Assembly (NCBI GenBank): GCA_004332195.1
Contig: SJBG01000006.1
Location: 1-64,000, forward strand
Length of the DNA: 64,000 bases
Direction of reading: 5' to 3'
From: Desulfobulbaceae bacterium
GTDB lineage: Bacteria > Desulfobacterota > Desulfobulbia > Desulfobulbales > Desulfurivibrionaceae
Shown here: positions 140 to 3,458 of the stretch, one piece after another
Position numbering within the stretch: position 1 is the stretch's first letter
Layout: every line of letters starts with the position of its first letter
Notes under the pieces: generated by a model
Database searches by the model: none
Seen by the model: the letters and a program-made list of their open reading frames with translations, nothing else
Told to the model about the DNA's origin: nothing
Translations under genes and position numbers: made by a program

Positions 140-1591
140 TCAGGGAGTTTTACTCATGGCAATACCCAAAGCCTTGGCCACCCCCGCGCCGTAGACTGGA
201 TCGGCCCGATGACAATTACCGATGTGGCGAACCTTGATCTTTTCGGGGGCGTCACCCATCGCCCGGGCGGTATTGGCAAACAGAACCTGCTGCTGCTCGG
301 GGCTCATCAGACGGAAAAGGTTGCCCGGCTGAGAGTAATAATCGTCATCCTCACGATGATTCCAGTGGTCGGCGGCCCCATCAAGGCTCAAAGGAGGCTC
401 GGCAAAATCCGGCTGCTCTTGCCATTCGCCGTAACTGTTGGGCTCATACCCCAGAGTGCTGCCGTAGTTGCCGTCCACCCGCATGGCTCCGTCGCGATGA
501 AAAGCGTGCATGGGGCAACGCGACCGGTTGACCGGAATCAGGTTGTGATTAACCCCCAGGCGATAACGCTGAGCATCACCGTAGGAGAACAGTCGTCCTT
601 GCAGCATTTTGTCCGGTGAAAAGCTGATGCTGGGCACAACGTTGGTCGGATTAAAAGCCGACTGCTCGACCTCGGCAAAGTAATTTTTCGGGTTGCGATT
701 AAGTTCGAGAACCCCCACTTCGATCAGGGGATAATCCAAATGGGGCCACACTTTGGTGAGATCAAAGGGGTTGTAAGGGCAAGAGGATGCCTCTTTTTCC
801 GGCATGATCTGAACGTAAAAGGTCCAGCGGGGAAAGTCTTTGCGGGCAATGCTATCGTAAAGATCCCGCTGATGGCTTTCCCGGCATTTACCAACCGTCG
901 CCTCGGCCTCGGCGTCGGTAAGATTTTTAATGCCCTGCTGGGACTTGAAGTGAAACTTGACCCAGTAGCGTTCGTTAGCCGCGTTGATCAGGCTGAAGGT
1001 GTGGCTGCCGAATCCGTGCATATGACGGTAGGTGGCGGGAATTCCCCGATCACTCATGACGATGGTCACCTGGTGCAGGGCCTCCGGTAAGAGGGTCCAG
1101 AAATCCCAATTGTTTTTGGCACTGCGCAGGTTGGTTTCAGGGTCACGCTTGACGGCATGGTTGAGGTCGGGAAACTTCAAGGGGTCACGAAGAAAAAATA
1201 CCGGAGTATTGTTGCCCACCATGTCCCAGTTGCCCTCTTCCGTGTAAAATTTGACGGCAAAGCCCCGAATGTCGCGCTCGGCATCCGCCGCCCCCCGCTC
1301 TCCGGCCACGGTGGAAAAACGAAGAAACAAATCGGTCTGCTTGCCAATTTGGGAAAAAATTTTGGCCTTGGAATACTTGCTAATGTCATGAGTGACGGTG
1401 AAAGTTCCGTAGGCCCCGGAACCTTTGGCGTGCATCCGCCGCTCGGGAATAACCTCGCGGTCGAAGTGGGCGAGCTTTTCCAAAAACCAGACATCCTGGA
1501 GCAACATCGGCCCCCGGGGGCCGGCGGTCAGGACGTTCTGGTTGTCTGCAACGGGGGCTCCAGCGGCGGTTGTCAACTTTTTCTCGGACAT
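140..1591 (-). CDS. katA: Catalase (monofunctional heme catalase, small-subunit KatA type)
   Basis: Decomposes hydrogen peroxide to water and oxygen in the cytoplasm. The 483-residue length fits small-subunit clade-3 catalases. Visible family marks are the distal heme histidine H54 in [10 protein letters not shown], the active-site asparagine in VGNNTP (127-128), and the proximal heme tyrosine Y337 in [14 protein letters not shown]. The ATG is preceded by AAGGAGA at good spacing. It is divergent from the nth-xth fusion gene, so peroxide removal and oxidised-base repair share one intergenic region. A promoter with an inverted repeat lies upstream (1667-1696). No catalytic residue is missing. 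Confidence 0.96.
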
Positions 1592-1754: not shown

Positions 1755-3284
1755 ATGACCAAATTTAAAATAAACGAGGCGATGGCCCGGCTGGAAGTCG
1801 AGGTCCCGCTATACCGGGTCCCGGTGGTGGACTTAATTGCGGTCCAGACCCGTGATCCCTACAAGGTGCTGGTGGCCGCCATGCTCTCGGCCCGCACCAA
1901 AGATGAAGTTACCGCCCCGGCCGCAGCCCGGCTTTTCGCCAAAGCCCCCAACCTGCAAAGTCTGGCCGCACTCTCTAAGGTAAAACTGGCCGGGATCATT
2001 TATCCGGTAGGTTTTTTCCGGGCTAAGGCCGGTTACTTAAGTCGGCTGCCGGGGGTTTTGGCCGAAGAGTTTGCCGGACAGATTCCGGCCACGGTAGAAG
2101 AGTTGATACGTCTGCCCGGGGTGGGACGTAAGACCGCCAACCTGGTGGTGGCGGTGGCATTTGAGCAACCGGCAATTTGCGTTGATACCCATGTTCATCG
2201 AATAATCAACATCTGGGGTTACGTGCAAACCACCACCCCCTTGGCCACCGAAATGGCCTTACGCGCCAACCTGCCGGGGCAATACTGGCGACGGATCAAT
2301 TCGCTGCTGGTCGCCTTCGGCCAGGAAATCTGCCGACCCATCGCCCCCCACTGCGACCGCTGTCCACTTGGCGATCTCTGCCCTCGCCTCGGGGTTAAGC
2401 CCCGCAAGCCGCCGAGCAACGATCTAACCGCGGTGGAACCCCCAAAAACAGGTCATCACCCCCCCCAAAGCCCGGAAATCCCGCGCTTGCCAAGTCCGAC
2501 CAACAAAGATGGCCAGACAAAGCGGATAAAACTGGTTTCCTGGAACGTCAACGGCCTGCGGGCCATCGCCAAAAAGGGCTTTAACCGGATCGTCCACGAA
2601 TTGGACGCGGATCTGCTGGCCCTGCAAGAGATCAAGGCCCACCCCGAGCAACTGCCGATAGAAATCCGGAAGCTGCCGGGCTATACGGCCTTCTGGCTGC
2701 CGGCCAAGCGTAAAGGGTACTCCGGCGTGGCAACCTACAGCCGCAAGGACCCGCTGCGGGTGATGTACGGAATGGCCAGAGATGAGCACGATCAAGAGGG
2801 ACGGGTGCTGACCCTGGAATTCGCCGATTTCTACCTGGTCAACGCCTATCTACCCAACGCCCAACCGGAACTGATCCGCCTGCCCTATAAACTCGACTTC
2901 TGTCGTCATTTTCTGGAATTCACCCACCGGCTGGCCAAAAATAAAAACGTGGTAATCTGCGGCGACCTCAACGTGGCCCACCGGGCAATTGATCTGGCCC
3001 GCCCCAAGGAAAACGAAAAAAGCCCCGGGTTCTCCCAAGAAGAAAGGGCCTGGATGGATCAGTTTCTGGCCACGGGCTTCATCGACACTTTCCGGATGTT
3101 TAATCAGGCGGGAGACAACTACACCTGGTGGAGCTACCGGGGGGGTGCTAGGAAACGCAACATCGGCTGGAGAATCGACTATTTCTGCATCGACACGGCG
3201 GGCCGCTCCAGGGTGCAGGCGGCCAACATTCGCCCGGAAATAACGGGATCGGATCACTGCCCGGTGGAGTTGATTATGGTCTGA
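1755..3284 (+). CDS. Fusion of endonuclease III (Nth) and exodeoxyribonuclease III (Xth)
   Basis: One uninterrupted ORF encodes two base-excision-repair enzymes. Residues ~1-215 (from the ATG at 1755) are Nth: helix-hairpin-helix LPGVGRKTA with catalytic K126, D144 in VDTHVHR, and a C-X6-C-X2-C-X5-C iron-sulfur loop (C193, C200, C203, C209). A proline-rich linker of ~40 residues follows. Residues ~257-509 are Xth/AP endonuclease: SWNVNGLRA, LLALQEIK (E292), CGDLNVAHRAID (D404, N406), IGWRIDYF and GSDHCP (D500, H501). Together they could remove an oxidised base and cut the AP site. The ORF is open from 1677, but 1677 lies in the promoter region. The ATG at 1755 fits the domain start; a TTG at 1740 behind GGAGG is the alternative. 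Confidence 0.93.
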   Translation: MTKFKINEAMARLEVEVPLYRVPVVDLIAVQTRDPYKVLVAAMLSARTKDEVTAPAAARLFAKAPNLQSLAALSKVKLAGIIYPVGFFRAKAGYLSRLPGVLAEEFAGQIPATVEELIRLPGVGRKTANLVVAVAFEQPAICVDTHVHRIINIWGYVQTTTPLATEMALRANLPGQYWRRINSLLVAFGQEICRPIAPHCDRCPLGDLCPRLGVKPRKPPSNDLTAVEPPKTGHHPPQSPEIPRLPSPTNKDGQTKRIKLVSWNVNGLRAIAKKGFNRIVHELDADLLALQEIKAHPEQLPIEIRKLPGYTAFWLPAKRKGYSGVATYSRKDPLRVMYGMARDEHDQEGRVLTLEFADFYLVNAYLPNAQPELIRLPYKLDFCRHFLEFTHRLAKNKNVVICGDLNVAHRAIDLARPKENEKSPGFSQEERAWMDQFLATGFIDTFRMFNQAGDNYTWWSYRGGARKRNIGWRIDYFCIDTAGRSRVQAANIRPEITGSDHCPVELIMV

Positions 3285-3287
3285 TTC

Positions 3288-3379
3288 CGGAATGTCGGAT
3301 CACTGTCCGGTGAAGCTGGTTATGGTCTGAGCGCGGAATGTCGGATCACTGTCCGGTGAAGCTGGTTATGGTCTGAGCG
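3288..3379 (+). repeat. Two 46-bp tandem copies of the 3' end of the nth-xth gene
   Basis: Just after the stop codon, a 46-bp unit (CGGAATGTCGGATCACTGTC... to ...GGTCTGAGCG) occurs twice, at 3288-3333 and 3334-3379, with identical sequence. Each unit resembles the last codons of the gene and would read SDHCPVKLVMV-stop, against SDHCPVELIMV in the gene. The units are therefore extra, slightly diverged copies of the gene's end. Confidence 0.9.
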
Positions 3380-3458
3380 CGGGCGGGGTAACTGCGCGCC
3401 AGGGCTATTAAATTTGGCGATTCAGGGCGGTAAAAGTTTACCGGCGCCTCAGCCTCGT

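Follow-up and report, generated by a model that had tools for sequence, protein, structure and literature searches.

Architecture of the locus

The window analysed here is a 64,000-nucleotide stretch of a Desulfobulbaceae genome. Near its start, one unbroken frame with an ATG at 1755 and a stop codon ending at 3284 encodes a protein of 509 residues, in which an endonuclease III (Nth) domain is followed by an exonuclease III (Xth) domain (Table 1). Pfam searches identified HhH-GPD (PF00730, residues 40–170, E 3e-21), HHH (PF00633, residues 106–133), and Exo_endo_phos (PF03372, residues 261–501, E 2e-28). The Xth half passes the NCBIfam xth model at 302.6 bits against a cut-off of 99.05, whereas the Nth half remains under the nth equivalog cut-off (160.1 versus 211.7 bits). 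The AlphaFold model (mean pLDDT 78) is composed of two folded domains connected by a linker of very low confidence, and its pTM of 0.57 defines no fixed arrangement of one domain relative to the other. The preliminary description of this DNA proposed a natural fusion of endonuclease III and exonuclease III; the single frame, the presence of both domains and the recurrence of the same architecture across the order bear this out, and the fusion is real, old, and conserved.

Table 1. Features of the fusion locus in window coordinates.
Feature	Coordinates	Strand	Basis
Catalase, divergent neighbour, not a conserved partner	140–1591	-	PF00199
Nth-Xth fusion gene, 509 aa	1755–3284	+	Single ORF; one-frame homologues in 127/159 Desulfobulbales genomes
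HhH-GPD glycosylase domain, residues 40–170; catalytic Lys126 (2130–2132), Asp144 (2184–2186)	1872–2264	+	Pfam and residue mapping
[4Fe-4S] loop, C193-x6-C200-x2-C203-x5-C209	2331–2381	+	Four Cys in 61/61 distinct fused proteins
Flexible linker, residues 210–257, proline-rich in the window	2382–2525	+	AF2 pLDDT <50 for residues 212–254; length variable in relatives
ExoIII/APE1-type AP endonuclease domain, residues 258–507	2526–3275	+	TIGR00633, 302.6 bits; Mth212 fold, TM (target) 0.93; catalytic residues
46-bp tandem array, 2.9 copies, repeating the gene's last codons and stop downstream	3249–3382	+	

Each downstream copy of the 46-bp array begins with an ATG and could encode a 12-residue copy of the C-terminus. 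The array was found behind none of the other fused loci compared and nowhere else in the window's genome.

Catalytic residues of the two halves

Residues were mapped by alignment to E. coli K-12 Nth and XthA, at positions that we take to be the catalytic ones in E. coli numbering, and invariance was scored over 61 distinct fused proteins. The endonuclease III catalytic pair, K120 and D138, corresponds to K126 and D144 in the window, and the iron-sulfur cysteines Cys187, Cys194, Cys197, and Cys203 correspond to C193, C200, C203, and C209; all six residues are retained in 61/61 proteins. The final spacer of the cysteine loop is shorter by one residue in two loci (L023 and L024). The nine exonuclease III active site positions tested are likewise invariant in all 61: N7 (N264 in the window), E34 (E292), Y109 (Y365), D151 (D404), N153 (N406), W212 (W458), D229 (D475), D258 (D500), and H259 (H501). 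A tenth position, 111, was left out of the count, as it is a proline in the E. coli enzyme. The claim that both halves keep their catalytic residues and iron-sulfur cysteines thus extends to every mapped position and to every distinct fused relative. From the architecture and this conservation we infer both enzymatic activities, and both halves of the fusion are apparently active.

Affinities of the two halves

The Nth half is closest to 9nzc (an endonuclease III that we judge archaeal by its look) and human NTHL1, then to 1orn (from B. stearothermophilus), and then to E. coli Nth. Two standalone Nth proteins of the fusion's own branch also miss the nth equivalog cut-off (169 and 181 bits); an E. 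coli-type Nth from Desulfobacterota scores 278 bits on this model. Because the cut-off is missed by the fusion and by its branch relatives, the Nth half is, judging from its sequence, an endonuclease III superfamily enzyme of the NTHL1/archaeal-like branch and not a certified E. coli-type endonuclease III. It shares with endonuclease III and NTHL1 the domain itself, the HhH lysine and aspartate, and the iron-sulfur cysteines. The differences are the C-terminal addition of a second enzyme, the score below the NCBIfam nth cut-off, and the residues corresponding to Gln41 and Leu81, which we take to be the wedge of endonuclease III. These positions are occupied by Arg47 and Phe87 in the window, as in the archaeal-looking 9nzc, and by Arg and Phe in 61/61 fused proteins.

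The nearest neighbours of the Xth half, by sequence as well as by fold, are archaeal Mth212 and Mm3148, followed by H. pylori Xth, B. subtilis ExoA, and APE1. In the fold search it is about 50% identical with Mth212 and 44% with human APE1; its identity with E. coli XthA is 30%. These comparisons assign the half to the APE1/Mth212/ExoA branch of the exonuclease III family, with which it shares the fold and the active-site residues tested, whereas its position C-terminal to a glycosylase sets it apart. A further difference concerns the residues for which PMC8307549 describes roles in uracil contact by Mth212: in our alignment Lys125 and Arg209 are retained as K379 and R462, whereas the position of Ser171 is occupied by Pro424.

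Distribution in Desulfobulbales and beyond

We searched 159 Desulfobulbales genomes, filtered at 90% completeness, with each half separately. A locus was called fused when both halves matched on the same contig within open frames of the same length, as a single frame of 430 aa or more. Both halves lie in one frame in 127 genomes; two more carry a fusion truncated at contig ends (G015, G182) and one a fusion interrupted by a run of N (G040). The halves are adjacent but split genes in six genomes (G020, G036, G037, G059, G092, and G578, the last by an in-frame stop). In nine others the Nth is solo, and the Xth found elsewhere in the genome is distant and diverged (G049, G137, G146, G159, G580–G584); in five more the Nth stands alone and Xth gave no match (G010, G013, G031, G113, G191; contig ends in G010 and G113). 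Three genomes gave partial or distant matches only (G006, G009, G025), and in six the Nth half was unmatched (G024, G085, G121, G172, G192, G579). The preliminary description had named separate genes as the observation that would count against it. Such separation does occur, in a minority of relatives where it looks secondary, but the fused form prevails in the order. Two genomes (G135 and G569) each carry two fused copies.

Outside the order, a phylum-level search of 394 genomes identified three one-frame fusions (G255, G551, G367), which may reflect transfer or contamination. Other phyla were probed through a pattern scan and through plasmid and phage records. Among the matches listed, named records with fused loci include Desulforhopalus and Desulfobulbaceae. 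The query is covered to 80% by a single plasmid record among the 544 that matched, and by no phage record.

Evolutionary history of the fusion

Quick trees with SH-aLRT support were calculated for both halves. For Nth (115 rows), a single clade (SH-aLRT 99) contains the order's fused, split, and solo sequences together with the three out-of-order fusions and a long-branched solo Nth from a different family (L255). Within this clade, seven solo Nth from a branch of family f12 group together (97). The Xth tree, calculated under a mixture model for 82 of 161 rows, unites 41 fused, six split-adjacent, and five solo Desulfobacterota Xth in one clade (SH-aLRT 93), and the Xth of the f12 solo-Nth branch lies far outside it. 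A large clade of solo Xth from other phyla had appeared within the fused group, with weak support, when no mixture model was used; the mixture model expelled it.

We read the trees, both of which fit such a history, as one early fusion in the order, with later fissions and, in one branch, a replaced Xth half. The five solo Xth that join the fused sequences in the Xth clade (L038, L158, L159, L163, L245) may be products of fission or transfer, or relatives that predate the fusion. Members of the f12 branch (L219, L221, L223, L225; L218, L220, L222, L224, L226, L227, L236) encode the Nth half on its own, and their Xth, where found, is distant and elsewhere in the genome, a pattern suggestive of domain loss and replacement.

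Linker, split points, and repeats

Between the last iron-sulfur cysteine and the first Xth strand, the window's linker spans 48 residues. Relatives were compared from the last cysteine to the SWN strand, a measure applicable to 58 of the 61 distinct proteins (the three lacking the SWN anchor were left out). By this measure the linkers range from 21 to 61 aa around a median of 27 and have a high content of Lys, Arg, and Pro; that of the window is 52 aa and unusually proline-rich. The proline-rich linker of about 40 residues noted at the outset therefore holds for the window but is not a family feature, as most relatives lack it. The frame is preserved across these 58 linkers although they share little sequence.

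In the split genes of genus g3, a GAGG stretch and an ATG directly precede the Xth domain, and several fused genes of the same family retain an in-frame GAGG-ATG at this position. Based on this, free Xth may also be made in g3 lineages with the internal GAGG-ATG. Within the window's linker, no start codon is preceded by a Shine-Dalgarno-like stretch.

The linker region of g3 loci (L005, L006, L007, L148) also carries a palindromic repeat, CTTCGACAGGCTCAG..., that is translated in frame. Its 25-nt arms are fully complementary in L005. The palindrome is dispersed: its pattern matches 30–48 times in each of the three g3 genomes tested and not at all in the three others, the window's included. A different palindrome lies between the split genes of L214. 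In five loci (L148, L151, L152, L153, L155), the genes are split at or close to runs of A in the sequence coding for the linker; single-base slips in such runs could switch fused and split forms.

Gene neighbourhood and repair complement

The preliminary description also suggested that the fusion and the divergent catalase form a small oxidative-damage module. We rejected this module: among the fused loci compared, a catalase adjoins the fusion in the window's copy only, and none was found around the fusion in the four same-genus stretches (L142–L145). In an unrelated case, two Planococcaceae loci (L055, L057) have a catalase 1.5–2.1 kb from a standalone Xth. On the opposite side, the window's fusion is flanked by a gene for an ABC auxiliary lipoprotein, a neighbour that recurs within the genus (window, L143, L145). 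As endonuclease III is reported to remove anoxic lesions as well, such as dihydrothymine (PMC8307549), an oxygen-specific role is unnecessary. Desulfurivibrio alkaliphilus is recorded as an anaerobic organism (PMC5016858).

The window's genome, 1.66 Mb in 21 contigs with a completeness rating of 100%, contains the fusion as its sole Nth and its sole Xth. A genome search identified no endonuclease IV (nfo) and two UDG-family proteins. A second HhH-GPD match (C19) is weak and resembles 3-methyladenine glycosylases; its assignment as MutY was rejected, as the best NCBIfam model is 3-methyladenine DNA glycosylase, itself below cut-off. As the only Xth of a genome that lacks endonuclease IV, the Xth half probably serves all AP sites of this organism.

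Across the order, nfo scores above cut-off in 123 of 159 genomes. By coordinates, it lies tail-to-tail with the fusion at less than 2 kb in ten genomes (G008, G028, G035, G043, G050, G057, G062, G070, G080, G090). Two of these genes, at L146:3679-4644 and L179:5479-6327, were confirmed as deoxyribonuclease IV, and the eight further genomes show the same arrangement. The pairing possibly represents a repair-gene neighbourhood.

Proposed function and alternative explanations

With moderate confidence, we favour a single-chain base-excision-repair enzyme whose tether promotes hand-off from glycosylase to AP endonuclease. In its favour are the domains and conserved residues, the 127/159 genomes with a one-frame fusion, the frame preserved across dissimilar linkers, the single clade recovered for each half, the sole-copy status in a genome lacking nfo, and the nfo genes tail-to-tail with the fusion elsewhere. 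The N-terminal endonuclease III/NTHL1-type half would locate and excise a damaged pyrimidine, and would then remain on the AP site or nick it 3' by beta-elimination. The flexible basic linker would keep the C-terminal APE1/Mth212-type half near, and this half would incise 5' to the AP site or take off the 3' unsaturated aldehyde. Polymerase would thereby obtain a 3'-OH end, and the glycosylase would be relieved of a product that it releases slowly. Human NTHL1 is described as limited by its AP-lyase step and product release and as product-inhibited, with APE1 bypassing this step (PMC13022620), and AP endonucleases are reported to be able to displace glycosylases from their abasic product (PMC7465369). 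With an NTHL1-like and an APE1-like enzyme covalently joined, this displacement would become intramolecular, and we infer that the tether would speed the hand-off. In the window's organism, which lacks endonuclease IV, the Xth half would also process AP sites left by other glycosylases such as the two UDG-family proteins.

Several observations count against such a hand-off. The tether appears dispensable in the six genomes with split, adjacent genes and in the nine with a solo Nth and a distant Xth; because some lineages have split or dropped it, the tether is not essential everywhere. The linker is neither conserved nor rigid, the structural model predicts no fixed interdomain arrangement, and most genomes of the order also carry endonuclease IV. 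In an alternative reading, the fusion would fix only co-expression and 1:1 stoichiometry of sequential enzymes, without any intramolecular hand-off. The adjacent split genes, the Shine-Dalgarno-like GAGG before the xth ATG in several of them, the in-frame GAGG-ATG through which several fused genes of the same family could yield free Xth, and the hypervariable linkers are all consistent with it. Translational coupling would be enough for that purpose, yet the fused frame is kept in 127/159 genomes, and the window's linker offers no comparable internal start; we consider this alternative unlikely, though deserving of serious weight.

It is improbable that the Xth half acts mainly as a nucleotide-incision or uridine endonuclease like Mth212, with the Nth half an independent passenger. 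The roughly 50% identity to Mth212 and the retained K379 and R462, equivalent to residues with roles given in PMC8307549, agree with this possibility, but the serine assigned to uracil contact in the same source is a proline in the window, and the genome already has two UDG-family proteins. Joining of two genes by assembly or sequencing error was ruled out as having a negligible probability, given a fusion found in 127/159 genomes, several of them single-contig (e.g., G004). Returning to the tethered enzyme, we advance its fuller form tentatively, at rather less than even probability: an order-ancestral enzyme that would pass the AP site or nick intramolecularly from an NTHL1-like to an APE1-like half, and that would be the sole endonuclease III and AP endonuclease in small genomes like that of the window.

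Implications for base excision repair

Most organisms make an Nth-type glycosylase and an AP endonuclease as separate proteins. The fusion is apparently undescribed. The preliminary description knew of no well-described protein of this architecture, and our search of titles and abstract beginnings in the open-access literature agrees, having yielded none; the architecture may well be visible in domain-architecture databases. The alkyltransferase-endonuclease V of Ferroplasma acidarmanus is also a natural fusion of two DNA-repair enzymes, but of different ones that do not act in consecutive steps on one lesion. MutY likewise combines an HhH-GPD glycosylase with an extra domain; its C-terminal NUDIX-like domain is described as noncatalytic (PMC9266487), whereas the extra domain of the window protein looks like a complete downstream enzyme.

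It is a standing question in base excision repair whether the glycosylase hands its intermediates straight to the AP endonuclease or lets them go to be recaptured. In Desulfobulbales the same pair occurs naturally in fused form, as split genes, and with one half lost, in organisms with endonuclease IV and in organisms without it; these lineages offer a ready comparison with and without the tether. An inherited fused enzyme of this kind could reveal whether tethering two repair steps matters.
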